A stretch of DNA of 64,000 nucleotides, from positions 6,701,001 to 6,765,000 of the forward strand of contig NZ_CP121650.1 in the NCBI RefSeq assembly GCF_029714405.1, read 5' to 3'. Of this stretch, positions 23,271 to 41,905 are shown piece by piece. The position numbers and the translations under genes were made by a program. Within the stretch, counting starts at the first letter, position 1. Every line of letters starts with the position of its first letter. A model generated the notes under the pieces. It searched no databases and was not told the origin of the DNA. It saw only the letters and a program-made list of their open reading frames with translations. This DNA comes from Bradyrhizobium sp. CB82 (GTDB taxonomy: Bacteria; Pseudomonadota; Alphaproteobacteria; Rhizobiales; Xanthobacteraceae).

Positions 23271-23974
23271 GTGCGTTTCCTTCTTGGCTGCTCACGCATA
23301 CGAATGGGCTCGCGCTCTGCCGACGATTTGCCGCCGACGATTTTGCGGATCGCGCCTCCGCGGGATCTCCAGCATCGCTCAGACGGCGTCGACGACAGCT
23401 TAGGCAAGGGTCTGATTTCTCCACATCGATCGATGTACCATCAAAGTCATGCTTCCCGACACGAAGCAGCGGATCAATACGCCTGCAAAACCGTAAAATG
23501 GCCGACCATGCTTCGCCTGCATTGTTCGGCTAGATGCCGACCGCGTCGTCCGCCACGTCGTCCAACCGAAGCCCCATTTACTCCTGTGTGTTTCCTTCGC
23601 GCTTACCGCATCGCCCGAGCGTGATGTCCCTCCATCCGCTCCTCAAGTGCACATCTCCGTTGCGCACTTGGTACGCATCTCGCCTGGAGAGAGTCGCTCA
23701 GTCTTGGCAGCTGAGCGAGTTTAACGTTGTAAGATGGTGTTAATCGTCGGTCTCTCGCGACATCTTTGGTCGAGGATAAGGCTCATGACTTGGCGCTTGG
23801 GAAAAGCGACTTGTGCGCCAATGGCGTGCGAAAGCGCGTTCGCCATCGAGCCGCGCGCCAATGAGCCAATCATGCGGCGTCTGCCGTTCATGCGAAGGTC
23901 GCGCGCGGCCCAGATCGTCGGAGTTCCAACATCGTAGGTGAAAGCCGCATTTTCATATGCGTGCTCACTAATCA
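23271..23974. other. Long upstream region of fumC
   Basis: About 700 bases with no supported gene. Short open frames at 23534-23743 and 23734-23937 have no domain. The main content is motif copy A at 23715-23744. The region between the motif and fumC may hold the fumC promoter. Confidence 0.5.
23715..23744 (-). promoter_or_regulatory. Conserved ~30-bp motif, copy A (upstream of fumC)
   Basis: Read toward fumC, this copy contains ATTAACACCATCTTACAACG followed by TTAAACTCGC. It is identical or nearly so to copies B and D over 30 bases. It lies 445 bases before the fumC start. The orientation relative to the gene is the same in all copies. Confidence 0.6.
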
Positions 23975-24731
23975 GGGGCGTCTGATATTATGGATGGATC
24001 GTTGGTCCCGCCACACGCGCCGCAAGATCCTCCAGGCCTGCGCGAACCTCCTTATAGCTCGCGAGGGACGCAGCGAGATGAGCGCCGTCGAGCTTCGGCA
24101 AGAGCGCGGCACGCGTTGCTTTGCCGTCACCGACAAGACCCGGGTCGGGGCCGGGTTCTCCTGCCGAGGTTCTCCGGACGCAACTCGATCTGCGCGATCT
24201 TGGCATCCGTCGGATAGAACTGCCGGTAGGGACGACCGGTGCTTGGCAATCAATAGCGTGTCGCAGGTCAGCATCGCTCCGTAGTCCGATGAGAACCCGA
24301 TCAGCCCGGTCATTCTGACGTCGTACGGGCTTTTCCCACTCGGTGTGCTACTTGCCGCCAAGCGCGTTGACGATCGGCGCACCCTGGCGCTCAGCCAACG
24401 CAATCACCTCGTCATGCGCACCTGCTCATCCCCGCCCGCGGAGCAGGTTCGATGGAATTTGCGCTGCGATTGCGAGGACGGGAACGCGAGAGCGGTGGCA
24501 ATCGAAAGCCCGTTGATCAGTGGAGATTTTCCTGGTCCACAGCTGCTGGCACACGGCGAGCCCGCCTGCTGAACGGCTGCGGCTTCCTAATGACGCGTGT
24601 GACGCCACGCGATGTCTCCGCAACGCCGCTCAGATTCCGTGAAGCAGAGTGTTGTTGACGATTCCGTAGACGCGGCGTACGCCGATCGAGCTGAGATTCT
24701 CGTTGATGATGTCGGCCGCCTTATATGCCAT
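23975..24731 (-). pseudogene. Wrecked PoxB-type thiamine-diphosphate enzyme
   Basis: An ATG at 24731, four bases after the ndh stop, opens AADIINENLSSIGVRRVYGI, a typical N-terminus of a TPP enzyme. It stops after 33 codons. Fragments in other frames follow: LAERQGAPIVNALGGK, EWEKPVRRQ or YDVRMTGLIGFSSDYGAM, DAKIAQIELRPENLG and HLAASLASYKEVRAGLEDLA. These correspond in order to the N-terminal and middle domains of pyruvate oxidase. The catalytic C-terminal domain is absent. It is clearly dead, and it sits where a poxB gene would follow maeA and ndh in one operon. Confidence 0.85.
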
Positions 24732-24734
24732 CTG

Positions 24735-26081
24735 CTAGCTCCTGCTCTGCTGTTCGCATTTCGCGACGAAGGCCCCTCTTGTCGCCTGCGGGCCAATGGC
24801 ATGCCCTGGAGCGCCATCCGAGATCAGCCGTGCGCTTCGCTGGCGCGTCACGAAGCTCCAGAGCCAATCAAATGCGACGACGATCTTGCTTCGAAAGCCG
24901 ATGAGAAAGAGGATGTGGACGAGGCTCCAGAACATCAGCGCGACAACTCCGGACAGTCGCAACTTGCCCATGGCTACCACGGCCGATTTCCTACCGATGA
25001 CCGCCAGATCACCCTGGTGCTTGTACGAAAAGGCGGGCGAGTTCACCCCGTTGCAGACACGCCCTGCAATGAGGCGACCTACATACCGGCCCATTTGCTT
25101 TGCCGCCGGGGCCAACCCGGGAACCGGCCTTCCTCCAGATTGCGCCGCACTCGTATCTCCGATGGCGAAGATGTTTTCGTGCGGCGGCACGGAAAGGTCA
25201 GACCGTACGATGATCCTATTTGAGCTGTCGTGTTCGGCGTCAAGCCATTGCGCCGCCCTTGAAGCCCGAACGCCTGCCGCCCACACCACTGTCGCAGCGT
25301 CGATTCGTTCAGGTCCAAGGGACACGCCGCGCTCGGTACATTCTGTCACACTCGAGCCGATTTTGACCTCCACGCCCATCTCGATCAACGACCGCTTGCA
25401 GCGTTCCGAAAGGCGTTCCGGAAAGGCTGGTAGAAGCCTCGGGCCGGCCTCGACTAGAACGATCCTCATTTTTCCTGGATCGATCCATCTGAACTCTCCC
25501 TTAAGCGTTCGATGGGACAATTCAGCAACGGCCCCAGCCATCTCCACGCCAGTCGGTCCGCCGCCAATTACAACCGTCGTGAGGCAGCGTCGTCGGACCT
25601 CATCGTCCTCGCTCCGCTCCGCCAATTCGCACGCGGATAGGAGCCGCTCGCGAAGAGCTCGAGCATCGTCGATTGTTTTGAGACCAGGAGCAAACGGTGT
25701 CCAACCCGGATGACCGAAATAGGCGTGCGTGGCGCCGGTCGCGACGACCAAATAGTCATAGGGTAACGTCGTTACGCCGTCGGTTACGGTTTTGCTCGTT
25801 GGGTCGATGGAGTTGACCTCCATCATGACGACGCGGACGTTTTTCTGCCTGGCGAAGACCGACCTCAACGGCCAGGCGATATTTCCGGGCGAAAGCGCGG
25901 CGGTCGCCACCTGGTACAACAATGGTTGGAAGAGATGACAATTTCTGCGATCGACAAGCGTGACCTCGACCGGCGCCGATTTGAGGGTTCTGGCGGCGGT
26001 AAGGCCACCAAAACCTCCGCCGATGATGACAACGCGAGGCAACGCCGCGGACGACACTCGGGCCCCTCCGGTGCTGCTCAT
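24735..26081 (-). CDS. ndh: Type II NADH dehydrogenase (single-subunit, FAD)
   Basis: 448 residues from the ATG at 26081. It oxidises NADH and reduces quinone at the inner face of the membrane without pumping protons. The FAD-binding VVIIGGGFGGLTAARTLK is at residues 15-32, and the NAD-binding TVVIGGGPTGVEMAGAVAEL lies near residue 175. The FAD-site ENIFAIGDTSA and the hydrophobic C-terminal helix (VVALMFWSLVHILFLIGF) also match. The frame is open upstream to 26510, but that part is a shadow of maeA. It starts 15 bases after maeA ends, so both are co-transcribed; malic enzyme would supply its NADH. Confidence 0.94.
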   Translation of the reverse strand: MSSTGGARVSSAALPRVVIIGGGFGGLTAARTLKSAPVEVTLVDRRNCHLFQPLLYQVATAALSPGNIAWPLRSVFARQKNVRVVMMEVNSIDPTSKTVTDGVTTLPYDYLVVATGATHAYFGHPGWTPFAPGLKTIDDARALRERLLSACELAERSEDDEVRRRCLTTVVIGGGPTGVEMAGAVAELSHRTLKGEFRWIDPGKMRIVLVEAGPRLLPAFPERLSERCKRSLIEMGVEVKIGSSVTECTERGVSLGPERIDAATVVWAAGVRASRAAQWLDAEHDSSNRIIVRSDLSVPPHENIFAIGDTSAAQSGGRPVPGLAPAAKQMGRYVGRLIAGRVCNGVNSPAFSYKHQGDLAVIGRKSAVVAMGKLRLSGVVALMFWSLVHILFLIGFRSKIVVAFDWLWSFVTRQRSARLISDGAPGHAIGPQATRGAFVAKCEQQSRS

Positions 26082-26095
26082 CTCCCCGATCCGCG

Positions 26096-27721
26096 CTAAT
26101 CGATGCGACCGTAGACGGGGACGAAGGCTTTGTCGCCTATTAGACGGCTGATATCTTGCGGGCGCGCTATTCGGGCAAGTCCGCGATCGAATATGTGCTC
26201 CGCGATCCTTGCCGCTACGTGCAAAGAAGCCGTCAATATTTTGCTCTGGGGCGGATAGATTAGACCAACATCGAGACTGTCCTGGCCGACTTGCTCTGCG
26301 ACGGCTTTGGCAGCAACGATGAACATCTCCTCCGTCACCCTCTTGGCTTCGGTCGCATAGACGGCCATGCCCATGGCGGGGAAGATGTAGACGTTGTTGC
26401 CTTGGCCAGGCACGAAGTGCGTGCCGCCGACGGTCAGTGGAGGAAATGGACTGCCGCTCGCAAAGATCGCGCGACCCTTCGACCAGGTATACGCTTCCTC
26501 TGCCGTGCATTCCGATCGAGACGTCGGATTGGAGTAGGGGAAGATGATCGGCCGCTCGTTGATTTCCGAAATGGCCTCGATAACTTTCTGATTGAACAGT
26601 TTTGGCACTGTACTCACGCCGATGATGCCGGTCGGCCTCAGTGCCTTGATCGCTCCGGCAAAATCGCCTATCGGCGCGTGCTCGATCGCGAAAGGTTTCT
26701 GAAAATCCCCGAGCTTTCTCGATGACGTCAGCAGACCATTGATGTCGTACAAGTTGTTGCGGCTTCTCGCCTGCTGGAGGGTCAGGCCTTCCATTGCCAT
26801 CGCCTGCGAGATCAGTTCAGCTATCCCTGTTGCGGCGGAACCGGCACCGAGAAAGAGGAATCTCTGATCGATGAGCTTTTGGCCGCTGATCCGCAACGCC
26901 GCATAAATACCGGCCAGAGCCACCGAGGCAGTCCCCTGGATGTCGTCATTATAGGTGCAGATTCGATCGCGATATTTGGCGAGGATTGGGACAGCATTGA
27001 TGTTGGCGAAGTCTTCCCACTGGATGCAGCTCTTAGGGAAGAGCTCTTGCACGGCTTCAACGAATTCGTCAATGAAGGCGCAGTACGGTTCGCCGCGCAC
27101 GCGCGATTGACGCAAACCGAGATAGAGCGGATCCTCGAGCAAGGCTGCATTATTCGTCCCAACGTCTATGGTGATCGGGAGACACAATTCCGGAGGAACA
27201 CCCGCGCACGCCGTATAGAGGGCGAGCTTTCCGATTGGAATACCCATGCCGCCAACCCCGAGATCGCCAAGACCGAGAATCCGCTCACCATCGGTTACGA
27301 CGATGAACCGCACGTCTTTCTGTGGCCAGTTTAAAAGCAATTGTTTGATACGGCCCTTGGCCGAAATCGGTAGGTAAATGCCGCGGGCGGCATGAAAGAT
27401 GTGGTCAAACTTCTGCGAGGCCTCGCCGACGGTTGGCGTGTAAACAAGCGGCATGAACCCTGCGGGGTCGGACATCAAGACCGCGTAGTACAGAGTTTCA
27501 TTTCGCGCCTGCAAGTCCGACAAGAATAGATACTTCTGCAGGTCACTGTCCAACATGGCAAGCTGCGTGTGTATCCGGGCTATCTGGTGGTCGAGCGACG
27601 CGGGCACCGGCGGCAGCAGACCTTCAAGTCCAAGATTTCGCCGCTCTTCATCGGAGAATGCTGTTCCCTTGTTGGTGTGCGGGTCGCGCAACAATGCATA
27701 GCCTTTTGCGTTCAAAATCAT
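26096..27721 (-). CDS. maeA: NAD-dependent malic enzyme
   Basis: 541 residues from the ATG at 27721, preceded by AGGAG with six bases spacing. It is a large-type malic enzyme, converting malate to pyruvate, CO2 and NADH. Motifs: VYTPTVGEASQKFDHI, the metal/substrate region GDLGVGGMGIPIGKLALYTA, EDFANINAVPILAKYRDR, YNDDIQGTASVALAG, and the nucleotide site FLFLGAGSAATGIAELI. It is first in the operon with ndh and the dead poxB. Motif copy B lies about 255 bases upstream. Confidence 0.96.
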   Translation of the reverse strand: MILNAKGYALLRDPHTNKGTAFSDEERRNLGLEGLLPPVPASLDHQIARIHTQLAMLDSDLQKYLFLSDLQARNETLYYAVLMSDPAGFMPLVYTPTVGEASQKFDHIFHAARGIYLPISAKGRIKQLLLNWPQKDVRFIVVTDGERILGLGDLGVGGMGIPIGKLALYTACAGVPPELCLPITIDVGTNNAALLEDPLYLGLRQSRVRGEPYCAFIDEFVEAVQELFPKSCIQWEDFANINAVPILAKYRDRICTYNDDIQGTASVALAGIYAALRISGQKLIDQRFLFLGAGSAATGIAELISQAMAMEGLTLQQARSRNNLYDINGLLTSSRKLGDFQKPFAIEHAPIGDFAGAIKALRPTGIIGVSTVPKLFNQKVIEAISEINERPIIFPYSNPTSRSECTAEEAYTWSKGRAIFASGSPFPPLTVGGTHFVPGQGNNVYIFPAMGMAVYATEAKRVTEEMFIVAAKAVAEQVGQDSLDVGLIYPPQSKILTASLHVAARIAEHIFDRGLARIARPQDISRLIGDKAFVPVYGRID

Positions 27722-28298
27722 GAACAACTCCTAATCGCTACTAAGCGTGACGTCACTCCCCACGACATTCGACGGTTTGCTTTGGAAGCCATGGGTGACA
27801 GTCAGTCTGGCGAATTCGCTAACAGTGGCCCCTATTCGTTCCGTGCATCGTACTAAGAGCGATAGCCCGCTCTGCGGTCTTCCCGCAGAATCCACGATAT
27901 GCCATCTTTTGCGCATGCGCGTTCTCTCAAGTGGCGCCCATCAAACCCTTCGAATCATCGCGCAACCTTCCCAGCTCAGCGAGTTTAATGTTGTAAGATG
28001 GTGTTAATGCTCGGCGATGAGAGGTCGTTTTGCGTGTGCACACTAATCGATTGACGGCCAGACTAACGATCTGTCGCGAGATCAGTCTCAGCAACATTCA
28101 CGATACTATCGTAGCACCGGCACCATCGCGGGCGATAGTTCTGCAGATCGCATGCTGCTTGCCGCTTTCACCTGCAGGCGGACGGCGAGAAGCAAAACCA
28201 TTTCAGGGGCCCATCTAATGAGGCGAAGCGAACGCGTTGCCCGCGCAGTCTCTTTCGCTTCGCGGACGTGACGCGAGACCGCCTGACGTACGGGCCGG
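27722..28298. other. Upstream region of maeA
   Basis: About 575 bases with no supported gene. Frames at 27747-28007 and 28030-28218 have no domain. The notable element is motif copy B at 27979-28008. The part near 28200-28298 lies downstream of the crotonase-like gene. Confidence 0.5.
27979..28008 (-). promoter_or_regulatory. Conserved ~30-bp motif, copy B (upstream of maeA)
   Basis: Read toward maeA it matches copy A over 30 bases except for one change in the TTACAACG-TTAAA centre (TTACAACATTAAA). Similarity continues weakly for about 12 bases into CTCGCTGAGCTG. It lies about 255 bases before the maeA start. Confidence 0.6.
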
Positions 28299-29066
28299 TT
28301 AACTGCCGGCTCGCGAGCGAGCTACGTCGGCCGCGGAAATGCCCTCGAGCGCCAACCCATAGCCGACGCTCTCATCAACCAGGCGACGTAACGGCTGGGT
28401 GAGAGCCACGCGAGTGTAGCTGGCAGTCAATGGTGGCAGCGTCGCGATGCTGGCCGCGATCTCCCGTGCCCGCACATGCAGGTGGTCTCGGCTCACGATC
28501 TCGTTGACCACTCCCAACTGCTTTGCTTCCTTTGCGTCCAGCGTCTGCTGGGTAAGAACGAAGTAGCGACCGCGGATCGAGCCGATCAGGTGCGGCCAAA
28601 GCGAATGGATTCCATCGCCGGGTACGATTCCGAACCCGAAATGCGGTTTATCCTGAAACACGGTGTCTGGCGTGGCGATCACGACGTCGCATAGAAGAAC
28701 ATATTCGGAATGCACCGTCGTTGGGCCGTTCAGGGCGGCGATCACCGGCACCGGAATATCCAGCAGGTTCGCAAGAACTTTCTTCCCCTCCCGGTAGATC
28801 TTGTCATACCCTCGCGGCGTGAAAAAATCGAAGCCCGCTGGGTCGATACGATCGATGAAGGCTTTCCCCGCGCCTGTTAGAATTACCACGCGATTATCGG
28901 CATCTTGGCCGATCTGGTGAAACAAATCCACGAACTCCTCGTGGGTATGCCCATCGAAGACGAGTGTGTCGCCGTCAGTGTGCAACACCACTTCGAGAAT
29001 GCCGTCGGGCGAGCGAGTGAGCTTGGCGTGAGGAAATGCGCTCTTGTACGTGTCGATCTTGGCCAT
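28299..29066 (-). CDS. Crotonase-superfamily protein resembling 6-oxocamphor hydrolase (retro-Claisen type)
   Basis: 255 residues from the ATG at 29066. It has a crotonase fold: VVILTGAGKAFIDRIDP, then ALNGPTTVHSEYVLLCDVVI and FGFGIVPGDGIHSLWPHLIG, and TLDAKEAKQLGVVNE. The CoA-binding glycine-rich oxyanion loop of true enoyl-CoA hydratases is replaced by TTVHSEY, and the usual catalytic Glu region reads PGDG. As I recall, the His and Asp in these positions are the catalytic residues of 6-oxocamphor hydrolase, which cleaves non-CoA diketones. The substrate here is unknown. A frame extension upstream to 29282 seems non-coding. Confidence 0.82.
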   Translation of the reverse strand: MAKIDTYKSAFPHAKLTRSPDGILEVVLHTDGDTLVFDGHTHEEFVDLFHQIGQDADNRVVILTGAGKAFIDRIDPAGFDFFTPRGYDKIYREGKKVLANLLDIPVPVIAALNGPTTVHSEYVLLCDVVIATPDTVFQDKPHFGFGIVPGDGIHSLWPHLIGSIRGRYFVLTQQTLDAKEAKQLGVVNEIVSRDHLHVRAREIAASIATLPPLTASYTRVALTQPLRRLVDESVGYGLALEGISAADVARSRAGS

Positions 29067-29196
29067 AGCCGATGTCCTCAGTGTTGTGACGCTGTAGATG
29101 GCGCTCTCTCCATCACCAATTCCAGAGCAGTCTGGCTCACGCACGCGCGTCCTCTCAACTGACGCCAGCTGGAACATTGGTGTGGCGCTTTCTCGT

Positions 29197-29562
29197 TTAG
29201 CAGCCACGACAGATAATAAGCTTGCGATCCAATTCTTTGTTGAGGCGATCTTGTTGGCGCTCCCACTCCGATATGGAATCATCGATCTGGATGTCGGCTC
29301 GTCGTGGTTGTCGGTGACCGATCGGCGCTCGCCATGGCAAACGCGAAGTCAGCGCCAGGGTGCTATTTCGATCGTGGACGCCGATTGAAGCATCGCTATT
29401 GTCGTTCGATGTGGTGCCGCGGACCGGGAGATCGGGAAAGCCGCTCACACTGCCTTCTTGCGCGGCGGTCGCAGCTGGCAAATACCAACCGATCATGACA
29501 ATACAGGCCGCGATAGCGGTGGCATGTCTCGCCGATTGGCTTAGGGTCGAGATAGGACTCAC
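29197..29562 (-). CDS. Small secreted hypothetical protein ending in CRGC
   Basis: 121 residues from a GTG at 29562, preceded by GAGGAG with seven bases spacing. A signal-peptide-like stretch (ATAIAACIVMIGWYLPAATA) is followed by an unstructured Ser/Asn-rich region. The C-terminus reads SISEWERQQDRLNKELDRKL then IICRGC. I recall small Bradyrhizobium proteins with this tail. Function is unknown. The terminal Cys pair might bind a metal or form a disulfide. Confidence 0.6.
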   Translation of the reverse strand: MSPISTLSQSARHATAIAACIVMIGWYLPAATAAQEGSVSGFPDLPVRGTTSNDNSDASIGVHDRNSTLALTSRLPWRAPIGHRQPRRADIQIDDSISEWERQQDRLNKELDRKLIICRGC

Positions 29563-29650
29563 GACGACACTCCTCTTTAGCAGACCGCCGATCCGCGTTG
29601 TGGGTTGCCAGAAAGCCGCCGGCAAGTTTTCGGGAGGCTCCTGTTTATCG

Positions 29651-30148
29651 TCACGCCACGCGAACGAGATCCTGCTTTAAGAGATAGAGCGACACCGCAA
29701 GCAGCACGACATCCTTCATCAGGAACGGGACATTGCCAGTCATAGCCGGAAATCCGGCTACGGGGTCCCAGCCGTTCGGCATGAAGGGAATTATCGAGAC
29801 AGTTACGATGAAGGTCACAGTCGAACCCGCGGCGCCGAGGATCCCCAGCCGCTTGTCCCAGAACCCTGCAAGAATCAGGGCGCCGAAGGTCCATTCGGAC
29901 AAGCCGAGAAGCCAGCTGGCACCCTGATGGCTGAACACGAGGTAGAGCCACCGGATCAGCGGACTGTTGCTGATGAACGGAACGAGCCGCTCGGCTTCGT
30001 ACGGCCACCACTTCTGGTAGCCGAAGAAGAAATACATGATTACCATGGAGGCCCGGATGACGTGGTAATCGAGATCAGACAAGAGCAGGCTCGACCTGCG
30101 CGATTTGCCGACAAATGGATCGAGTGCGGTATCCATATGCGCGTTCAT
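29651..30148 (-). CDS. DUF417 (YkgB-like) inner-membrane protein, second copy
   Basis: 165 residues, the ATG preceded by GGAGCACCACA. It has four membrane helices. The pattern HVIRASMVIMYFFFGYQKWW, RLVPFISNSPLIRWLY, LSEWTFGALILAGFWDKR and FLMKDVVLLAVSLYLLKQDL runs parallel to the protein at 15961-16461, so the two are paralogues. Function is unknown in general. Motif copy C lies 133 bases before the start. Confidence 0.9.
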   Translation of the reverse strand: MNAHMDTALDPFVGKSRRSSLLLSDLDYHVIRASMVIMYFFFGYQKWWPYEAERLVPFISNSPLIRWLYLVFSHQGASWLLGLSEWTFGALILAGFWDKRLGILGAAGSTVTFIVTVSIIPFMPNGWDPVAGFPAMTGNVPFLMKDVVLLAVSLYLLKQDLVRVA

Positions 30149-30280
30149 TGTGGTGCTCCTTTTCGTGGCAACCGAGCGGTCGCACTAGGCGACGGCGTGG
30201 AAGTAGATTGGGGTGTCGTTGATGCGGAACGTCGAGACACACCCGAATGCTTGGGATCTTCACAAAATCCTGCTCGTTGC

Positions 30281-30310
30281 GCGAGTTCAACGTTGTAAGA
30301 AAGTGTAAAT
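30281..30310 (-). promoter_or_regulatory. Conserved ~30-bp motif, copy C (upstream of the DUF417 gene)
   Basis: Read toward the DUF417 gene it contains TTTACACTTTCTTACAACGT then TGAACTCGCG. It keeps the CTTACAACGTT core and the ACTCGC tail but differs in several bases of the left half. It lies 133 bases before the start codon. Confidence 0.5.
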
Positions 30311-30752
30311 TGCATGGAGAGGCAGTGGCAGGATGGCTCGTTGAGTGTTCAGAGAAACTGCTAGCTATGCGGTGGCATTCGACAACACTGATTGAAATGA
30401 CTTGTCGGCCGACCGCTTCTCAATCGTCGCATCGATCGCGGTGAAGAACCAATTCTGCTAGGTCGCTCTGGGCAACGAACCAACGCGCCAGCACGCTCGG
30501 AGCAAGAGCCGCGAGCCGGCAACACTGTCGCCAAGGCAGTGTTGAGTGCCGAGCCTGGCCTCGCCGAAATAGGCTGCAAGATAGGGCAAGATGCCTTCAG
30601 TCCTTCCTACTCCTGTCCAGCCTGATATGCGCTTATCACGTGGAGCCCGCTCTCATTTGTGCGGCAGGGCAACCCTTCAAGCGCCCGAGAGTGCAACGGT
30701 CGGGCCTTTTCACTCGACGCGTCGCGCTGCAAGTGTGATCTCTGCAACGACA

Positions 30753-30782
30753 ATTAACACCATCTTACAACGCTAAACTCGC
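30753..30782 (+). promoter_or_regulatory. Conserved ~30-bp motif, copy D (upstream of the histidine kinase gene)
   Basis: Plus strand, ATTAACACCATCTTACAACG followed by CTAAACTCGC. It differs from copy A by a single base. It ends 74 bases before the kinase start, and this is the only copy whose target gene is on the plus strand. Confidence 0.6.
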
Positions 30783-30855
30783 TCGCGTTGTGACGTTGCG
30801 TCATGCTCTCCGCTGATCGGATTCCCTCAACGCACTTCCACCTGAGGAGCGTACC

Positions 30856-31638
30856 ATGCACGAGACAGAAGGGCTGGTTAAGGTAGCGGAAACCCGCGGG
30901 ACCATCGCTACAGAGCGGGTGGCAAAACGGTCCATCACTTGGAGCATGACGGCCAGAGCAGATCCGCAAAGGCCCTCGGAGTTCGAATCCGTGTTACTTG
31001 CAATAGCGGGACACGATCTCCGGCAGCCACTCCAGGTCATCCAGGGCGCGCACGATTTTCTAAGTCTCGGCGTTCGAACAGACTCCGAGCTGCGGCTGCT
31101 GCGCTCCGGCCAGAGCGCCATCGATCGGTTGAGGGACCAGCTCGATGAATTGCTCGCTGCGATGCGGCTCCGGGAACACGCGGAGGGGATGAAGCTAACG
31201 CCGGTGCCGGTTGGGCCTATATTTCGGCAAGCTTGTCGCGAGAACAAGATTTTGGCTCTACGAAAGGGAATCACCCTTCGCATAGTCGAGACCACCGCCA
31301 CGATTCACAGCAACGCGCTGCTTCTCAGCACTATCCTGCGCAACCTGATCAGCAACGCGATCAAGTACACGCAACCCGGTGGACGCATTCTCCTCGGTTG
31401 CCGTCACGTCGGCCAGAACATCCGTATCGATGTGTATGACACCGGAATCGGTATCGCGGAAGACCAAATGCCTCGAATTTTCGAGGCCTTTACTCGTCTC
31501 GATCCGGCGCGACGCGACGGTCTGGGCGTCGGCCTCTTCATCGTGCGCCAGGCCGTCGGCCTCCTGGGGCATCGCGTCGACATCAACTCTGCGCCCTCAC
31601 AAGGGTCGCGATTTTCGATACTCGCAACAAAAAACTGA
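30856..31638 (+). CDS. Soluble sensor histidine kinase
   Basis: 260 residues; the start follows CTGAGGAGCGTACC. No membrane helix and no obvious input domain. The H-box reads LLAIAGHDLRQPLQVIQG (about residue 52). The N-box NLISNAIKYTQPGG, the G1 box DVYDTGIGIAEDQ, the F-box RIFEAFTRLDPA and the G2 box GLGVGLFIVRQAVGLLGHRV all look functional. The H-box type (GHDLRQPLQ) is common in hybrid kinases. With only ~45 residues before the His, it needs a partner sensor or detects a cytoplasmic signal. Motif copy D is just upstream. Confidence 0.92.
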   Translation: MHETEGLVKVAETRGTIATERVAKRSITWSMTARADPQRPSEFESVLLAIAGHDLRQPLQVIQGAHDFLSLGVRTDSELRLLRSGQSAIDRLRDQLDELLAAMRLREHAEGMKLTPVPVGPIFRQACRENKILALRKGITLRIVETTATIHSNALLLSTILRNLISNAIKYTQPGGRILLGCRHVGQNIRIDVYDTGIGIAEDQMPRIFEAFTRLDPARRDGLGVGLFIVRQAVGLLGHRVDINSAPSQGSRFSILATKN

Positions 31639-32186
31639 CAAAATGGCAGCGCAACGACGTCAAGACGGGCCGTCTTGGTACTGCGTCAGCAGCAAGACCT
31701 AGATGATTTTTCTAAACGATGGTTTGCTGCAGTCCGCGCTCAGCCTGGAACGCAACGCGCTTACGCGAAAGGCGAACTGTACTCGTCACGTTGTAACGGA
31801 AGAATCAAGATGCTGTTTGGGCAAACGGCCGCGACACAATTGGCTTGCACACGGGTCGACGCGCGGGGCAACAGACAACTAAACGGCAAAGCTTGCCTCA
31901 CTGACCGGCTCTGATCGAGGGGCGCTGCTTTTCTACGCGGCGACATTAGCTCGGCCGACTGGCGGGCTTATGGTGAGCTCATTATAATCGAGCCGCTAAC
32001 CAAGCGGTTGACAGCTGCTAGCTGCCGGGCCTTGCGCAGGGCCCCATCCGTTGCGCACTTCGACCTTGCCTCGACGAGAAGGGTAAGGTTTTTCGCGTTC
32101 ACAGACTGGTTGGCAGGGTGCGCTCCTTTCATGCAAAGCAATCACAGCAATGCTCCTACTATAACCACGCCGCACATGTCGTAACG
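31639..32186. other. Intergenic stretch between two kinase genes
   Basis: No supported gene. Open frames at 31675-31914 (plus) and 31761-31946 (minus) have no domain. A lone ACGTTGTAA at 31786-31794 resembles the core of the five-copy motif but lacks its flanks. Confidence 0.5.
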
Positions 32187-33369: not shown

Positions 33370-33824
33370 GCATGCTGGGACGCATTTTGATCGTCGAGGA
33401 CGATCCAAGAGACGTTGAACTTACTCTGGCTGCCCTGGAGGAGTACTACCTGACAAACGAGGTGGTTGTTACCCGTGACGGACAGGAGGCTCTCGATTAT
33501 CTCTATTGTCGGGGGCAGTTCGATAGTCGTTCGAACGAAAACCCAGCCGTCATGCTGCTCGACTTAAAGCTGCCAAAGATTGATGGGCTGGAAGTGTTGC
33601 AGCAGATCAAATCCGACGATCATCTCAAGGTGATACCCGTGGTGGTGCTGACGTCGTCCCACGAGGAAAAGGACATGATGAAAAGCTACAAGCTCGGGGT
33701 GAACGCCTACGTCGTAAAGCCGGTCGACTTTCACGAATTTGTCAATGCCGTCAAGGAACTGGGCGCGTTCTGGGCGATCGTGAATGAGCCGCCGCCGGGC
33801 AGCATGAAGAAGAACGTACTGTGA
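33366..33824 (+). CDS. Single-domain CheY/Rcp1-like response regulator
   Basis: 152 residues; the ATG follows GAGGAGCACTCT and overlaps the end of the kinase frame. A single receiver domain without output: acidic pocket [18 protein letters not shown], phospho-acceptor Asp in [17 protein letters not shown] (about residue 65), Thr/Ser in [13 protein letters not shown], and Lys in [12 protein letters not shown]. Rcp1-type regulators act by protein contacts. The order kinase-regulator-hybrid kinase, with overlapping ends, indicates one phosphorelay operon. Confidence 0.94.
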
Positions 33825-35716
33825 CGTCTCCTCTTCGGATTCTATTGCTGGAGGATAACTCCACTGATGCCGAGCTCATTCAAGATCTCCTGGAAACGGA
33901 CGGGCTCTTCTTTGAGATAACGCGGGTTCAAACACGTGTTGAGTTCGAAGGCGCACTCAACAACGTCGCAATTGACCTGATTCTTGCGGACTACCAACTT
34001 CCCTCATTCGATGGTCTTTCAGCATTGAACCTTGCCCTTCGTACCCATCCTAATCTACCTTTCATCTTTGTTTCCGGGACGCTTGGCGAAGAAGTCGCCG
34101 TCGAGGCACTCAAAATCGGAGCCACGGATTACGTTCTGAAGACCAGCCTGTCGAGACTCGTGCCCTCAATGCGGCGCGCATTGCGCGAAGCTGGACAACG
34201 AACCGAACGCAGGAAGGCTGAGGAGGCTCTACGCAGGAGCGAGATGACCCTCGCCGAGGCGCAGCGATTGAGCCACACCGGGAGTTTCGGCTGGGACGTT
34301 TTGAGTGGGGAAATCAACTGGTCCGATGAGACATGTAGAATCTTTGGATGCGCCCCTGGGACGAAGCCAACGACGGACCTGGTGGTGGAGCGCACTCACC
34401 CGGACGATCGGATGCTTCTTCGAAAGATGATTGATCGCACCTCGATCGTGAGAGCCGCATTTACCACGGAGCGGCGCCTGATGATGCCGGATGGTGTCAT
34501 AAAGCACGTTCGAGTTGTGGCTCATCCCGCAGCTAGCGACAATCCTGAGAGCGTGCTCTTCATAGGCGCGATAACGGATATCACTAGCCGCAAGCGCGCT
34601 GAAGAGACGCTACAGGAACAGGCTAATCTTCTTAACCTAACGCATGACGCTATTTTCGTCCACGACTTGAATGAGATTATCACGTACTGGAATCGTGGTG
34701 CAGAAAAGCTGTATGGGTGGACAGGCGAGCAAGCGAAGGGCCAGAATGCTTTCAATCTGCTGAAGCCGGCCTTCCCGGCTCCACTTGAGGAAATCACGTC
34801 AGAACTGCTGCAAACTGGCCATTGGGAAGGCGAGGTTGTGCACACCAGGAAGGACCACGCTCGGCTAACCGTGGAGAGCCGCTGGTCATTGCAACGAGAT
34901 GCGCAGGGCACGCCTGTAGCAGTTTTGGTGACCAACAGCGATATTGGGGATCGCAAATTGGCCGAAAGAGAGCGCGAAAGATTGCGTCAGCTGGAGGCAG
35001 ATCTCGCACGCATAAACCGTGTGAGCATGATGGGAGAGCTGGCTGCCTCTCTCGCGCACGAGATCAAGCAACCGATCACTGCGGCCGCGTTGAAAGCCCA
35101 GGCCTGCGGGCGATGGCTAAGTCATGCTATGCCCGACGTGACAAGAGCGCGCGAAGTTGCTGGCGAGATGATTACCGATGTAATGCGAGCAGGCGCCATC
35201 ATCGACCGAGTGCGATCACTGTATGCGCGCAGTGCGCCGCAATGGGAACTCATTGACATAAACGAAATTATTCGAGAGATGACGGCTTTGCTACGTGATC
35301 TGGCGATTCGAAACGCTGTCTCGATCCGCACCGAGCTTGCTGTTGGGATTCCGTCGACGACAGCGGATCGCGTGCAAGTGCAGCAGGTTTTGATGAACCT
35401 GATGATCAACGGCATCGAGGCGATGAAGGATAGCGGTGGCGAGCTGACCGTCGTGTCCGATAGGACCGAAGACCATCAATTACTAATCTCGGTGAGCGAT
35501 TCTGGCATCGGGCTTCCAGCCAACGAATGCGAGCACATTTTCGATGCATTTTTTACCACGAAACCGCAAGGCGCCGGTATGGGATTGTCCATCAGTCGGC
35601 GGATAATAGAGTCGCATGGCGGTCGCTTGTGGGCGAGCCCGAACTCCGGCCGGGGCGCGACCTTTCGCTTCACGCTACCAGGTAAGGCGATGCAGTCCTC
35701 ACGTCACGCGGTTTAA
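33821..35716 (+). CDS. Hybrid sensor kinase: receiver-PAS-PAS-histidine kinase
   Basis: 631 residues from a GTG at 33821 that overlaps the TGA of the receiver gene. Residues 1-125 form a receiver (LRILLLEDNSTDAELIQDLL, phospho-acceptor in LILADYQLPSFDGLSAL). Two PAS domains follow, one near 145-265 (LSHTGSFGWDVLSGEINWSD) and one near 270-390 (LTHDAIFVHDLNEIITYWNR). The kinase core has the H-box SLAHEIKQPITAAALKAQ, NLMINGIEAMKDSGGEL, SDSGIGLPAN and GAGMGLSISRRIIESHGGRL. No membrane helix is seen, so the signal is probably cytoplasmic. This receiver-first layout suits the second step of a phosphorelay. Confidence 0.93.
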   Translation: MTSPLRILLLEDNSTDAELIQDLLETDGLFFEITRVQTRVEFEGALNNVAIDLILADYQLPSFDGLSALNLALRTHPNLPFIFVSGTLGEEVAVEALKIGATDYVLKTSLSRLVPSMRRALREAGQRTERRKAEEALRRSEMTLAEAQRLSHTGSFGWDVLSGEINWSDETCRIFGCAPGTKPTTDLVVERTHPDDRMLLRKMIDRTSIVRAAFTTERRLMMPDGVIKHVRVVAHPAASDNPESVLFIGAITDITSRKRAEETLQEQANLLNLTHDAIFVHDLNEIITYWNRGAEKLYGWTGEQAKGQNAFNLLKPAFPAPLEEITSELLQTGHWEGEVVHTRKDHARLTVESRWSLQRDAQGTPVAVLVTNSDIGDRKLAERERERLRQLEADLARINRVSMMGELAASLAHEIKQPITAAALKAQACGRWLSHAMPDVTRAREVAGEMITDVMRAGAIIDRVRSLYARSAPQWELIDINEIIREMTALLRDLAIRNAVSIRTELAVGIPSTTADRVQVQQVLMNLMINGIEAMKDSGGELTVVSDRTEDHQLLISVSDSGIGLPANECEHIFDAFFTTKPQGAGMGLSISRRIIESHGGRLWASPNSGRGATFRFTLPGKAMQSSRHAV

Positions 35717-35975
35717 GCTGCAGGTCAGACGCAACTGTAGTGCAGGAGGGCCGACCACCGCATTGAGTTTCCGGTCCGCTGTAAATGATGAGAAGAATTC
35801 TCGCCAAATTCAGGCAGGAGCGCGACCTTCAGATAGGGATTCTCGAGCACTTGGGTCTTGAACGAGCGATCAAGGATAGTCTTCTCGTCGATCGACCCGC
35901 TCACCGTTCTGCGCTCCGGCCGGGTAATTGACGGCACTCCAAAAGCTAGACACGCAGAAATCATACTGCATCGAG

Positions 35976-36782
35976 TCAAAGAGCCCTGTGGTTGCGAGTA
36001 GCATCTTCCAGCTCTGCCTTTATGGCAAGGAAACGTTCATCCAGCACAAGCGGATTCTCGCGGTTGAGGGCGATCACCTGCGCCCTCGCCTCGCCACCTC
36101 GCGCGACTTCGAGGGCGTCGGCCTCGATTCCTTCCACGATCGCGGCCGCGACATCAACCGCGGACTCACGTCCGAAACCAAGACCCGCGCCCGCCTTCGA
36201 ACTTGCCATCATCGGCGTGTCGGTGGCGACCGGATAGACCGTCAGCACGTGCACGCCCTCGCCCTTGAGCTCACGGCGCAGCGCCTCTCCGAAGCGGGCA
36301 AGCCCCGCTTTCGTGGCAGCATACGTCCCATAAAACGGCACGCCAGTCAGCGCAGCCGCAGATGTCACGTTGACAATCAGCCCATCGCCGCTGCTGCGCA
36401 GGCGTGGCAGCGCCTCACGTGTCAATAGGATCGGTGCCAGCAGGTCAACCTCGACCATCGCCCGGATCTCGCGTTCCGGAATAAGCTCAAGCCGTCCGGC
36501 TCGCACCGCGCCGGCATTGTTCACAAGGATATCGATGCCACCGAATTCGGCGTCCGCATAAGACAGAATCTTCTGTCTATCCGACCCTCTGGTCACGTCG
36601 GCCGCGACTGCACTGACGCTCAGGCCGGTCACCTTGAGCTGTGCGACCGCCTTGTCCAGGTGCACTCGTCGCCGACCCACGATTGCTACGCGTGCGCCGC
36701 GCGCCAGCAGCAAGCGCGTTAGCGCCAAGCCGATGCCGCTGGAGCCACCGGTGACCACAACGCGCTTTCCCTTCAGATCCAT
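35976..36782 (-). CDS. Short-chain dehydrogenase/reductase (classical SDR)
   Basis: 268 residues from the ATG at 36782. The cofactor motif VVVTGGSSGIGLALTRLLLA lies at residues 7-26, with an Arg-rich turn (IVGRRR) that favours NADP. The structural NNAG (ILVNNAGAVRAGRLELIP), catalytic Ser (IVNVTSAAALTG) and YxxxK (FYGTYAATKAGLARFGEAL) are intact. It is close to DltE-like oxidoreductases. Substrate unknown. It stands alone between the kinase operon and a FUSC-like gene. Confidence 0.93.
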   Translation of the reverse strand: MDLKGKRVVVTGGSSGIGLALTRLLLARGARVAIVGRRRVHLDKAVAQLKVTGLSVSAVAADVTRGSDRQKILSYADAEFGGIDILVNNAGAVRAGRLELIPEREIRAMVEVDLLAPILLTREALPRLRSSGDGLIVNVTSAAALTGVPFYGTYAATKAGLARFGEALRRELKGEGVHVLTVYPVATDTPMMASSKAGAGLGFGRESAVDVAAAIVEGIEADALEVARGGEARAQVIALNRENPLVLDERFLAIKAELEDATRNHRAL

Positions 36783-36898
36783 TACTCGATTTCCCTTTGT
36801 GGCCCAAATCGCCATTTGCAATGGCCTCGCGGCACCTTCAGCCGTTCCATCGTTTGACGACCGATCCAGCTCCGCGATCGAAAGCTAACTTCACGTCA

Positions 36899-37417
36899 TC
36901 ATTTCCCGACTGCACGGGAATACAGATACGAAGCAGCCCATTTACTTCCGACCCCGATCCCGACTCCAACAACGGTATCAACCAGACGGAGGACTGGTTG
37001 CTGCCAGGCATCAGTAGGGCTAATCGCAGCAACCACCATGACGACTACCGTCGTTATTCCCGTGGTAACGATGTCCTCTTGTCGGCCTAAGAGCATCATT
37101 GCCAATGTACCGATTCCGATCAGCGCAGCTAGACCTAGTACCGTGAATGGGAAGAACCAAAGATAGGCCAAGCACAACGCGAAGCTCACGCTCGTGGCCA
37201 GCAATCGGCTCGCTCCTGCCGACAAGCTGTCGCCGCGAGACGCCCGAAAGACGAAAAGGGTCGCCACGGCCGCCCACATGCCTCCCAAAAACTCAGAATC
37301 CTTGTCAACAATTGAGGCAAGTGCATGGGTCATAACCCAGTAGGATATTGCGCACGCGATTCCCATATTCAACGAGTAGATGACGTTCCAAGATGAGAGC
37401 CTTGCCCTAACAATCAT
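36899..37417 (-). CDS. FUSC/aromatic-acid-exporter-like membrane protein
   Basis: 172 residues; the ATG follows GGAGGTGACGTT, a strong Shine-Dalgarno. It has six predicted membrane helices. Segments VIYSLNMGIACAISYWVM, FLGGMWAAVATLFVFRAS and LRLVDTVVGVGIGVGSKWAA are characteristic of the FUSC/ArAE N-terminal membrane unit. Many relatives have a long cytoplasmic domain; here only the membrane half is present, as in some short bacterial forms. It may export organic acids, but no substrate can be given. Confidence 0.8.
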   Translation of the reverse strand: MIVRARLSSWNVIYSLNMGIACAISYWVMTHALASIVDKDSEFLGGMWAAVATLFVFRASRGDSLSAGASRLLATSVSFALCLAYLWFFPFTVLGLAALIGIGTLAMMLLGRQEDIVTTGITTVVVMVVAAISPTDAWQQPVLRLVDTVVGVGIGVGSKWAASYLYSRAVGK

Positions 37418-37456
37418 AACGTCACCTCCATCATCGAGCTGAAAGCTACGGGTTTC

Positions 37457-37627
37457 TCATCGAATCCCGTTTCGTGGGCTTCGTTCCACCCGAACTGCAC
37501 TTCCTTCAGCTCGAGTGTTTCGGTTCTCGGCCGAGTGGGCGACCGCAAGGGCCTCTCGCCAACCTGCAAACGCGGGCAATTCACCGCCGATCATCAAGAG
37601 TGCGATCGCTCCTCGAATTCTAAGCAT
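37457..37627 (-). CDS. 56-residue secreted hypothetical protein
   Basis: An ATG at 37627 follows GGAGGGTGAGAAGACC. A short signal peptide (MLRIRGAIALLMIGGELPAF, then AGW) precedes a small hydrophilic tail rich in Arg and Asn. No family recognised. It ends 39 bases before the FUSC-like start on the same strand, so it could be the first gene of that operon. Confidence 0.5.
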   Translation of the reverse strand: MLRIRGAIALLMIGGELPAFAGWREALAVAHSAENRNTRAEGSAVRVERSPRNGIR

Positions 37628-38112
37628 GGTCTTCTCACCCTCCTTTGTACGACTATTTCCAGAATATCGCGCCCTCGCGGGATGTCTTCCGCAGTTATGC
37701 CGTCTCTTGACCGAAAGTGCGCCGTTCATTCGTATCCTGATCTCCAAGAAACGTCTTTCGACACAAGCGCGCTGGGCCAAATGGCCACAAGGGCACCTGC
37801 GAGCACGCTTCAAGCGCCCGTCGGGCGCCCACATAGGAATTGCAAGCGATCACCGCAAACCTTGGTTTTAGTTCCCGCAGCCCTTTCGGCTACCGGCGCG
37901 AACCGACGTACAATTGAGCCATCTCCCTCATCATCTTAATCTCGCCGCCGTTTCTAGATTGGGCGATCGCCTGAACCTAAAGTCGACGATTTGGCCCACA
38001 ACTCGAGCGCAATCATTTTTTATGATGTCGGGATCCACTTTTGCTTTGGACGACGTCAACGACAGAGAAGGACGGCAATTGGGGCCCGAGCGACGACCAG
38101 AGGAGACAGGAA
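37628..38112. other. Intergenic stretch, no recognised gene
   Basis: Open frames on both strands lack domains. The interval must hold promoters for the minus-strand secreted protein and the plus-strand zinc-ribbon gene. None could be assigned. Confidence 0.5.
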
Positions 38113-38289
38113 ATGCTCAGCAACTCAAACAATAAGCAGCATGATGCGCCAAAGCGCTGCGCGGCCTGTGAGGGACCGTTCGGTCTCATCCGGCATTATT
38201 CCTGGCGAACTCCCCTCTGTTCAAAGAAGTGCGTTGAACGCTTCAAGGTCCGCCGCTGGGAGAACGGCAAGTGGCTATGCCGTCTTTAG
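38113..38289 (+). CDS. Small four-cysteine zinc-ribbon-like protein
   Basis: 58 residues from the ATG at 38113, preceded by AGAGGAGACAGGAA. KRCAACEGPFGLIRHYSWRT and then PLCSKKCVERFKVRRW give a C-x2-C and C-x3-C pair that could bind one zinc. I recall similar short proteins in Bradyrhizobium, of unknown role. A longer in-frame start at 38041 lacks a ribosome binding site. Confidence 0.65.
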   Translation: MLSNSNNKQHDAPKRCAACEGPFGLIRHYSWRTPLCSKKCVERFKVRRWENGKWLCRL

Positions 38290-38559
38290 CAAACAGGCGC
38301 CTAAGGCCCTGCCTTGAAAAGCGCTTGAAAATTCATGCTTTTCGAATTCGGAACACATGCGCACATCGGGCTTTCTGGTCGAGCTCATCCTGTGGCACTG
38401 TCGCTGCTGTCTCCTCACGCGCTGCCGCGCCGAGCGCAAGACACTGAAGATCAGGCTAGTCGTCTCTTACAGAGAGTCCTAAGTGCTGCGATTTTTGCAC
38501 TGACGGATGAGAAGAACGAAGCCTGTCTTCGACCTAACGAGGATGGTAGGCAATAATCC

Positions 38560-39324
38560 ATGACTGTTGACCGAGCGTTAGTTGCTATTATCGACAGCGA
38601 CGACTCCTTGCGAGCGCGATTGAAGATCTTGCTCGGGAGGGCGGGCCTAGAGGTCGCACTCTTCAAATCGGCCGAAGAATACTTGAAGAGAGGCACATCT
38701 CATTCACCCAATTGCATCGTGCTAGACGTGCGGTTGCCCGGCATAAGCGGCCTCGATCTTCAATCCCGACAAGCAAGGACCAGACTACCCAATATACCCT
38801 TCGTCTTTCTTACCGCTCAGAACGAGGCCAGGACGGTCGTTTCAGCGATGAAAGCTGGGGCCGTCGACTATCTCATCAAACCGTTTCAAGATCATGAGCT
38901 ACTCGACGCGGTGAAGAGCGGCATCGAGTCTGATCGCGCGCACCGTTTGCAAAAGCAGACCATGGACGAGCTACGGACCCGGCTCAAATCGCTTTCGCCT
39001 CGCGAAAGAGAGACGATGGTGTTACTTTCAGCAGGACAGGGACCCAAGCAGATTGCAAGCCAATTGGGAGTCTGCACGCACACCGCTCGCATTCATAGTG
39101 GCCGGATCATGTCCAAAATGGCTGCACGATCTATCGCCGATCTGGTGCGCATGGTGGATAAGCTGGGTCATGTGTCTAGCGGAGGCACAATACGCTCTGA
39201 TGACTTCGATGGGATCAACTGCTGCAGAGCTCTCCGCCGATATCCTAACGCCCGCAAGCCCGACGGCTCTTCGAGCGAGAGCCGAGGCGGTCAATCTATG
39301 CCGCTTGCCCCCCCACTATCCTGA
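38560..39324 (+). CDS. FixJ/NarL-type response regulator with a C-terminal extension
   Basis: 254 residues. The receiver (1-120) has an acidic pocket in VAIIDSDDSLRARLK, phospho-acceptor Asp in CIVLDVRLPGISGLDL (about 56), Thr in FVFLTAQNEA and Lys in DYLIKPFQDHELLDAV. A LuxR-type HTH follows: LSPRERETMVLLSAGQGPKQ, then IASQLGVCTHTARIHSGRIM. A usual FixJ-family protein ends soon after this. Here about 45 extra residues (NCCRALRRYPNARKPDGSSS and on) follow, perhaps from loss of the normal stop. No kinase is adjacent; the kinases at 30.8-35.7 kb are candidate partners. Confidence 0.9.
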   Translation: MTVDRALVAIIDSDDSLRARLKILLGRAGLEVALFKSAEEYLKRGTSHSPNCIVLDVRLPGISGLDLQSRQARTRLPNIPFVFLTAQNEARTVVSAMKAGAVDYLIKPFQDHELLDAVKSGIESDRAHRLQKQTMDELRTRLKSLSPRERETMVLLSAGQGPKQIASQLGVCTHTARIHSGRIMSKMAARSIADLVRMVDKLGHVSSGGTIRSDDFDGINCCRALRRYPNARKPDGSSSESRGGQSMPLAPPLS

Positions 39325-39889
39325 GGTCGGGAAATCCCCACCGGGCGATCTGACCGCGAGCAGAGGACGTTCGATCGCAAATGGCTTCCTTGCCGAGCTA
39401 CGCGCATGTGTGTCAATAGGAACGCTCCAATCCTCAAATTGTAATCCTCGAGACTCTCGGTGCGACCCCGCTTCCGAATGATGTCAGGCGCGCCTGTTAT
39501 GGGTCATCGAACCATCGACTTTCGGCCCGCCTCGTTGACTGCGACTGACTCCAGCCCAAGCGGCGCCGGCTTTCGAAGCACTCGCTCTCCCGAAGCCATC
39601 GACGAAAGATGCGAATCAGAAGGCTAAAAATGGCGCCGGGTGATCACCAACATTGGGGATCAACCTGGCAATTGGAGGCGCAATAAGGGCAGCGAGGGTG
39701 GCTTTGCACGCGTCTCCATTTCAAACGGCGCTATGAGATCCCTCTACTCCGATATGCTATACACCCTAGAATGATGCGCTGGCCGACACCCCGACGCGCT
39801 GCGACTTCCTTCAGCGGTTTTCCGACCCAACCTAGCCTGTGACGCGTCAGGGCTAAGCAGATCGCGCGAGGGGTGATGCGTGCGTCGCT
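39325..39889. other. Convergent intergenic stretch, no recognised gene
   Basis: About 565 bases between the FixJ-like gene and the end of the AraC-type gene, which converge on it. No gene, repeat or clear terminator hairpin was identified. Confidence 0.5.
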
Positions 39890-40900
39890 CTATTTGAACT
39901 CCCTGCGATATTCGCTCGGTGTCCAGCCTGTCGTCTTCCGAAAGGCCACGCTAAAGGAGCTCGTTTGACAGTAGCCAAGCGCAAACCCGATGTCTGTGAT
40001 GGGGATTGATCGATCTGCCAAAAGCAGCTTGGCTTGTTCAATGCGCCTTTGCACGTGGTACTGATGCGGCGGAACGCCGAAGGATTTTTTGAAGGCCCGA
40101 CAAAAGTGGTGCTGGCTGAGGCGGGCGAGCTGCGCAAGCGTACCTAGACAAATTTGCTCGCCTAGATGCTCTTCAATGTAACCCACGACAGCGCGCTTTT
40201 GCCAACAAGCAAGGCCTCCACGAATCGGGGCCGCATCACGCGATGCGCTATCGTCAGAGCGCGACAGCTCAATTGCGAGCACGCTAGAGAGCGCGGACAG
40301 ATAGAATATCTTCTTTGCTTGCCCATTCTCGATCGCGCTCTTCAACTTGGCCGCGGTTTCCCAAACGACAACGTCCTCAAAATGAACTCTCGCGGCATAG
40401 TCGGTTTCTCCATCGCTTCGGAGAACGGTTGGATCCAAATAGAGAAACGTCAAGCGGGTGGACGAAGCGGTCTCGAGCCGCTCTCGATAGCCGCAGCCGG
40501 CCGGGACGAACGTGAGCTTCTTCGCAAAATTCCGAATCTTGGACGGCGCGAATCCATCAATCGAAGTTTCCCCGTCCCGGCGGGCCCCCTCATTGTACAT
40601 TGCCAAGAGGTGAACGGGACCTTGAAATTCTAGCTCTATTCTCCGCCCCATCGGCGCATGTATACTCTCTACGAACCAACCGGGACAACCAGTACCGAGA
40701 CGCTTTACACACTCAACCGGCCCAATTTGGACAGTCGGATGGAGAAGCTTACTGCTACTTGACGGACAGGACTTGACATCGACCGGCGGTCCGATCGTGT
40801 TCAAGTCCCGAAGGTCAGTTACCGCTTGATTTGCGCTACCATATGGTGAGCTTATCCTTTCAGGCCCTCCGCTCGACACGCTCGTCATCATCCCTGTCAC
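39890..40900 (-). CDS. AraC-family transcriptional regulator
   Basis: 336 residues if started at the GTG at 40900. ATGs at 40891 and 40888 are also possible. The N-terminal ~225 residues are a non-conserved sensing domain without membrane helices. The C-terminal ~100 residues contain the two AraC helix-turn-helix units: ICLGTLAQLARLSQHHFCRA with FKKSFGVPPHQYHVQRRIEQ, and ITDIGFALGYCQTSSFSVAF with RKTTGWTPSEYRREF. The last matches the family signature. Regulated genes are unknown. A weaker copy of the five-member motif lies 105 bases upstream, so the gene may belong to, or control, that set. Confidence 0.92.
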   Translation of the reverse strand: MTGMMTSVSSGGPERISSPYGSANQAVTDLRDLNTIGPPVDVKSCPSSSSKLLHPTVQIGPVECVKRLGTGCPGWFVESIHAPMGRRIELEFQGPVHLLAMYNEGARRDGETSIDGFAPSKIRNFAKKLTFVPAGCGYRERLETASSTRLTFLYLDPTVLRSDGETDYAARVHFEDVVVWETAAKLKSAIENGQAKKIFYLSALSSVLAIELSRSDDSASRDAAPIRGGLACWQKRAVVGYIEEHLGEQICLGTLAQLARLSQHHFCRAFKKSFGVPPHQYHVQRRIEQAKLLLADRSIPITDIGFALGYCQTSSFSVAFRKTTGWTPSEYRREFK

Positions 40901-41484
40901 CTACTAACTCTCCGTAGTCGTGGATCATTGGCGGGCGACCTCGCACTCGCCTAGTTCGCACTCTCAATCGATGAGGCAGACTATGTCGACCGGTGAAAAG
41001 TGTCGCGTTAAGCGTTGTAATTAGGCGTTGTAAAACGTCGTAAGGATGCAAACAATGACTGGCGGAAGCTCGTTTCGTGGATTTCTTATCCGATATGCTT
41101 CCTATTCAAAATCGCAGTCTCGTCGGCTCGAATAGCGCCATACTATTTTTGACTGCTCCAAGTTACCGATTGGCTTTAGTCAACACAAACCAAAGTTTTA
41201 TCTTGGTCGTTCCGACGGCAACTGTCGACGGTCAAAATGCATGATCAGCTGTCGACTGCACCACCACCCACGATCGCCGGGTCGCCTTCTATCAATCCGC
41301 AACGGTACGACGGCTTTCGCTCGATGCCTCGCGGGCGCGCTAATCTGACAAGATCACTTCAACTGCAACAATCCTGGAATAGCAGGCAGGATCGAGTGCA
41401 CGCATACTACGCGCCCGAGAGGGTCGATTGGGTTGTCGTTAAGACAGTCTTCCGCCCGCGAGCCTACGCCAACGAGCCAACCAA
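40901..41484. other. Upstream region of the AraC gene
   Basis: No supported gene. It contains motif copy E at 41005-41034. An open frame at 41237-41560 has no domain. Confidence 0.5.
41005..41034 (-). promoter_or_regulatory. Divergent copy E of the ~30-bp motif (upstream of the AraC gene)
   Basis: On the plus strand, GCGTTAAGCGTTGTAATTAG is followed by GCGTTGTAAA. It aligns with the other copies through TTAA-CGTTGTAA-GG-GTT. CGTTGTAA occurs twice at a spacing of 13 bases, so it may contain two half sites. It has the same orientation relative to its gene as the other four, 105 bases before the start. Confidence 0.4.
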
Positions 41485-41835: not shown

Positions 41836-41905
41836 CCCGGACAACCACATGGGGAGACTGAATACACTGAGTGAATGGCGCGGGGTTGCCAGGTGAATCA
41901 AGTAC

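Follow-up and report, generated by a model that had tools for sequence, protein, structure and literature searches.

A repeated 30-bp motif in Bradyrhizobium as the predicted operator of large STAND-type transcription regulators

A repeated 30-letter motif was followed up in a 64,000-nt stretch of the Bradyrhizobium sp. CB82 genome (the window) and is a real control site. It is fairly probable, in our assessment, that the motif serves as the operator of a STAND transcription regulator family whose members combine a winged helix, an NB-ARC/NOD domain and TPR repeats. Judged from sequence, the motif is probably the landing site of these little-studied, large ATP-driven regulators, whose targets would be genes for detoxification and for small signalling kinases. 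If this is true, an AfsR-like mechanism would extend from the control of antibiotics in Streptomyces to the defence of soil and root-nodule bacteria against stress. A search of the open-licence literature, at the level of listed entries, found no Bradyrhizobium STAND regulator of this type with a known operator or regulon, and a predicted operator together with named genes makes the function of these regulators directly testable.

Motif copies in the window and in related genomes

The motif was described by a 29-bp pattern, TTNACACNNTCTTACAACNNTNAACTCGC, and its occurrences were scored with a matrix built from 35 sites. The initial annotation had listed five copies, each upstream of a different gene. 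The four strong copies, at 23715, 27979 and 30281 on the minus strand and at 30753/30754 on the plus strand, were recovered at these positions; all four face the next gene, and copies A and D are one base apart over 30. The copy placed at 41005 did not hold up (score 16.3 vs 47-52), and the fifth strong copy lies outside the window. The features are listed below, with gaps between motif and gene taken from ORF start coordinates.

21846..23270, minus strand: fumC, doubtful as a target
23715..23743, minus strand: motif copy A (29 bp), matrix score 50.7, 444 nt before the fumC ORF start
26096..27727, minus strand: malic enzyme gene maeA, overlapping an NADH dehydrogenase-like ORF (24735-26510)
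27979..28007, minus strand: motif copy B, matrix score 51.9, 251 nt before the maeA ORF
29651..30148, minus strand: DUF417 membrane protein, weakly RclC-like (69 bits, cut-off 275)
30281..30309, minus strand: motif copy C, matrix score 47.0, 132 nt before the DUF417 gene
30754..30782, plus strand: motif copy D, matrix score 48.6, 73 nt before the histidine kinase gene HK1
30796..30803, plus strand: second conserved element, consensus ATTGCGCnA, here TTGCGtcA (motif positions 42-50, from column frequencies)
30856..31638, plus strand: HK1, a 260-aa histidine kinase with Pfam matches to HisKA and HATPase_c alone
41003..41031, minus strand: weak, register-shifted match before araC, matrix score 16.3
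56693..57847, minus strand: truncated STAND regulator; the 384-aa ORF contains Trans_reg_C plus an incomplete NB-ARC and matches roughly the N-terminal 300 of some 950 residues

The exact core pattern matched once in the window and never in 100 shuffles. With up to three mismatches, TTNACACNNTCTTACAACNNTNAACTCGC matched five times in the 10.1-Mb genome and its reversed form not at all; four of these matches are in the window, the fifth lies at contig position 6782831, 18 kb past its end, and all five fall within about 58 kb. The 18-bp core, at up to two mismatches, gave 16 matches in the whole genome vs 3 for the reversed pattern. At up to two mismatches, a set of 146 Bradyrhizobium genomes, this one among them, yielded 10 sites in 5 genomes and none for the control, while among 397 genomes of the order (15 of them Bradyrhizobium, own genome included) the own genome was the sole match and the reversed control gave 2. 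No Rfam family matched positions 23000-42000 at gathering score, and a literature search with the core string and the word 'promoter' returned titles that, among the matches listed, look unrelated. About 0.5 kb downstream of the fifth strong copy, a partial coding stretch for a histidine kinase ATPase domain was observed (L022:17831-18594, contig position 6782831 onward).

In HK1, the kinase that follows copy D, Pfam found no sensor domain. Relatives of HK1 at E <= 1e-40 were detected in 25 of 265 genomes. The motif stands upstream of 17 of the 24 Bradyrhizobium HK1 copies (0-4 mismatches of 20, with wide flanks) and is missing from the other 7, and its end lies 68-77 nt before a start codon in 16 of the 17 motif-bearing loci (57 nt in G161c). 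When 30 loci with HK1 relatives were inspected at the upstream position, a match with up to six mismatches was present in 18 and absent from 12, the latter including all six loci of 36-49% identity (L058-L063). A further histidine kinase extends over two overlapping frames at 32118-33369 of the window (plus strand; DUF4118 and HisKA / HATPase_c), possibly through a frameshift.

Three syntenic relatives (G027, G161 and G248) allowed the proposed target genes to be compared. The motif is conserved before DUF417 and maeA in all three. The assignment of fumC became doubtful: the site matching 23715 in G027 and G161 precedes a gene for an RclA-like oxidoreductase (in G027 of 480 aa), fumC follows some 1.1 kb later, and a tblastn search of the window for this oxidoreductase gave no match better than E 0.035. 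Because the RclA-like gene stands between motif and fumC in these two genomes and is missing here, the link to fumC looks like a deletion scar. G248 yielded no RclA-like gene and no such site before fumC. The copy assigned to araC also lost its standing, as the match is weak and shifted and no site of at least 12 was listed near the araC orthologs of the three relatives. Intergenic position, orientation, constant HK1 spacing and retention in relatives bear out the earlier view of a binding site or promoter element, as opposed to random repeats; orientation, HK1 spacing and conservation, together with the matrix counts at STAND loci given below, likewise support an undescribed regulon.

Two minor observations concern these leader regions. 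A possible remnant of a TPP-dependent enzyme, seen by ORF clustering alone, lies upstream of copy A at 23961-24403, and G027 has a TPP gene upstream of the site matching copy A. The maeA leaders of G027 (L031) and G161 (L149) contain, between motif and maeA, a short reading start MCETE that resembles the N-terminus of HK1 (MHETE/MRETE) and is absent from G248 and the window; in G027 and G161, maeA may have acquired its promoter and leader as a copy of those of HK1.

Association with STAND regulator genes

Clustering of the ORFs at 26 loci gave one recurrent large neighbour, a STAND-type regulator found at 22 of the 26 when truncated forms are included. The protein has about 950 aa and carries Trans_reg_C (an OmpR-type winged helix), an NB-ARC ATPase and weak TPR matches. 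The winged helix (PF00486), for which PDB matches to OmpR, PhoB and CadC were obtained, spans residues 33-106 in the G162 protein and 56-130 in the G145 protein. In the two full-length proteins scanned, NB-ARC (PF00931) starts at residue 145 or 168 and scores 25.1 and 27.3, just over the cut-off of 23.5, the TPR matches are below their cut-offs, and a BTA domain is absent from the Pfam hits at E <= 0.001; a third, cut STAND piece gave no family in the Pfam scan. The NB-ARC/NOD domain, repeat sensor and effector domain that characterise the STAND class were found as these domain matches and as an alignment of the NOD region with the AfsR model of NCBIfam (46 bits, cut-off 1430). At E <= 1e-200, 177 of the 265 Bradyrhizobium genomes encode a regulator of this type. 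Among the 17 HK1 loci with the motif, 13 carry a full-length STAND gene within the sequence fetched (some 20 kb off in G027) and the other 4 (window, G161a, G161b and G248) a partial one; a STAND-like gene was also seen at 4 of the 7 motif-less loci. The gene order STAND, site, SnoaL-like gene, site, HK1 is found, for example, in G145, G161c, G031 and G162b.

The link was quantified with the matrix, which gave one hit of at least 8 and none of at least 10 on 600 kb of random sequence. Among 46 STAND loci unused for the matrix, a site of at least 8 was present in 33, of at least 12 in 25 and of at least 18 in 19, as against 4, 3 and 0 of 193 control windows of 5.8 kb (Fisher p 1.5e-25, relatedness ignored); 13 of the 46 have no site of at least 8. 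Seven training loci, the duplicate L233 and the control loci with STAND genes (L141, L145, L146 and L148) were left out of this count, in which many STAND loci are orthologs and independence is overstated, L214-L232 measure 5.5-10 kb vs the 5.8 kb of the control windows, and L205 and L216 overlap, neither having a hit. When the proteins were clustered at 60% identity, a site was found in 10 of 15 clusters, a count that takes in loci of the training set and one or more spurious ORFs. Of 61 sites, 3 fall inside a STAND gene, although the STAND genes make up 48% of the bases. Three of the four control hits (L126, L140 and L147; about 12.2-12.9 kb) face a gene of about 343 aa, with no STAND gene found in the fetched stretch; in L145 and L148 the counterpart of this gene and a STAND gene are divergently oriented, and a site lies between the two.

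Co-variation between sites and proteins (Mantel) was weak in the uncurated set, at r 0.14 (p 0.10) for the recognition helix and r 0.18 (p 0.05) for the winged helix, and in this set the rest of the STAND protein gave a higher value (r 0.28, p 0.0006). Co-variation rose to r 0.51, a figure for the curated set, only after one spurious ORF had been removed and two sites re-registered, and it is taken as supporting evidence only. A phenylalanine in the recognition helix accompanies operator base C in 10 of 10 cases and a valine in 1 of 15 (p 3e-6, post hoc and among related proteins).

Near the sites of the own genome the truncated 384-aa ORF is the only STAND gene seen; four intact paralogs are encoded elsewhere, two of them without a site of at least 8 in the fetched stretch. 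Since the local STAND gene is truncated, either its shortened product or a paralog may read the own-genome sites, or these may be relics. Loss of an inhibitory part could, as a speculation, leave a constitutive regulator. The local winged-helix gene of G248, about 330 aa long, has lost its ATPase part in a different way, through loss of its middle, and that of G027 is of equal length; both genomes carry intact STAND relatives within about 35 kb of HK1.

Operator architecture and competing explanations

The motif contains three half-sites, TTNAC, yTTAC and TNAAC, arranged head to tail and about 10 bp apart. Correlation between columns was highest at lag 10 (0.37), followed by lag 18 (0.34), and was 0.10 at lag 11. 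A half-site repeat of about 10 bp suits an OmpR-type fold bound head to tail, and three such half-sites would place STAND protomers next to one another along the same face of the double helix. The second element, ATTGCGCnA, lies 13-21 bp downstream of the motif, with A at position 50 at a frequency of 0.91, and could represent the promoter or start region of an activator-dependent promoter. We infer that the STAND proteins bind the motif directly and activate transcription on a stress signal, the bound protomers helping RNA polymerase at the weak promoter just downstream.

Two Streptomyces regulators provide the closest models. The sections of PMC10936776 on AfsR, a large SARP, describe an OmpR-type winged helix, NOD and TPR within one protein, a direct-repeat box that overlaps a suboptimal -35 element, and a DNA-binding part restrained by NOD and TPR. 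The STAND family shares this architecture and the direct-repeat site, but its repeat period appears to be about 10 bp instead of 11, its sites face genes for kinases and for detoxification, and the host is Bradyrhizobium. For PimR, a SARP-LAL, the operator description in PMC5930380 gives a main operator of three heptamer direct repeats over 29 bp and a secondary one of 10-bp units. Three direct repeats in 29 bp are also found in the motif, while PimR differs, by the same description, in its CGGCAAG sequence, its SARP domain and its single target gene in pimaricin synthesis. SARP operators of the AfsR/PimR kind have repeats 11 bp apart, the 3' repeat lying 8 bp from the -10 element. The Bradyrhizobium proteins were not filed as SARPs because no BTA domain was found, although by analogy their sites would work like AfsR and PimR operators. 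The DNA-binding domain of MalT is C-terminal and of LuxR type, whereas that of the regulators here is N-terminal and of OmpR type. The treatment of MalT in PMC4381067 presents it as a typical STAND activator with inducer-driven assembly, and the STAND ATPase is the feature in common.

The half-site spacing also bears on an orthodox explanation, in which an OmpR/CpxR-type response regulator phosphorylated by HK1 binds the motif and the STAND protein is a neighbour or target only. The half-site spacing of CpxR and OmpR is compatible with that found here, and the motif does lie upstream of HK1 itself. However, no OmpR-type response regulator was recognised among the 45 largest ORF clusters, which were typed in part, and sites also occur at STAND loci where they face DUF1348, Ohr or efflux genes, so we regard this explanation as unlikely. 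An alternative sigma factor that recognises the motif as a core promoter would account for the constant distance to the HK1 start codon and for the second element at a fixed distance. Three half-sites at about 10 bp, a conserved stretch exceeding two hexamers and the operator variants at STAND paralogs make such a factor a rather improbable answer.

The FixJ-like regulator (38560) and the AraC regulator (39890) of the window had been put forward as candidate binders; both lie close to sites and have syntenic orthologs in G027, G161 and G248. Yet FixJ-like ORFs occur at 5 of the 7 motif-less HK1 loci (G025b, G032, G083, G167 and G169) vs 6 of the 17 motif-bearing ones, and the araC-proximal copy is not conserved in the three relatives, which leaves very little credence for either protein; the likely binder, on these comparisons, is the STAND regulator of about 950 aa. 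That the copies are repeats or mobile-element ends, as five own-genome copies within about 58 kb and a kinase remnant by the fifth might suggest, is contradicted already and was rejected, as their similarity fades past about 57-67 bp and the sites keep the same register upstream of orthologous genes in several genomes.

Operator variants and the genes faced

STAND paralogs would use variants of the operator. At 12 loci (L200-L203 and L206-L213) one paralog is accompanied by as many as three sites of related sequence, e.g. CTCGCAACTCCTAACAACTTCTAACACGC; the genes they face, as typed in L200 and L211, encode a HisKA_2 kinase, a DJ-1/PfpI protein and a protein that matches no family. For some variants a second matrix was used, made from 15 such strings, and its scores are not independent. 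Sites at other STAND loci face genes for Ohr, a CMD peroxidase-like protein, an epoxide hydrolase, a quinone oxidoreductase and EmrA- or MexE-like adaptors; a DUF1348 gene is faced as well. Family names suggest oxidant and electrophile defence as the common theme. Small local regulons would thus consist of a sensorless histidine kinase and mostly defence-like genes (DUF417, RclA-like, SnoaL/DUF1348, CMD peroxidase-like, Ohr, DJ-1/PfpI, epoxide hydrolase and efflux adaptors as putative members), with maeA and one gene of no known family as further candidates.

E. coli responds to reactive chlorine through RclR and RclABC. The motif precedes both the DUF417 and the RclA-like gene in G027 and G161, which recalls RclABC, but the RclC and RclA models reach 69 of 275 and 358 of 740 bits, both below cut-off, and there is here no sign of an AraC-type protein as regulator. 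The best model for the RclA-like gene is a general FAD-containing oxidoreductase (433 of 629).

A new signalling unit of STAND regulator and sensorless soluble histidine kinase can be proposed tentatively, although we think it rather doubtful: the STAND protein would sense an electrophile or oxidant and drive the kinase gene by way of the operator, and the kinase would in turn feed back on its STAND partner or act on an orphan response regulator. The kinase has no sensor and its STAND partner no receiver domain, and such pairs are seen with both HisKA and HisKA_2 kinases.
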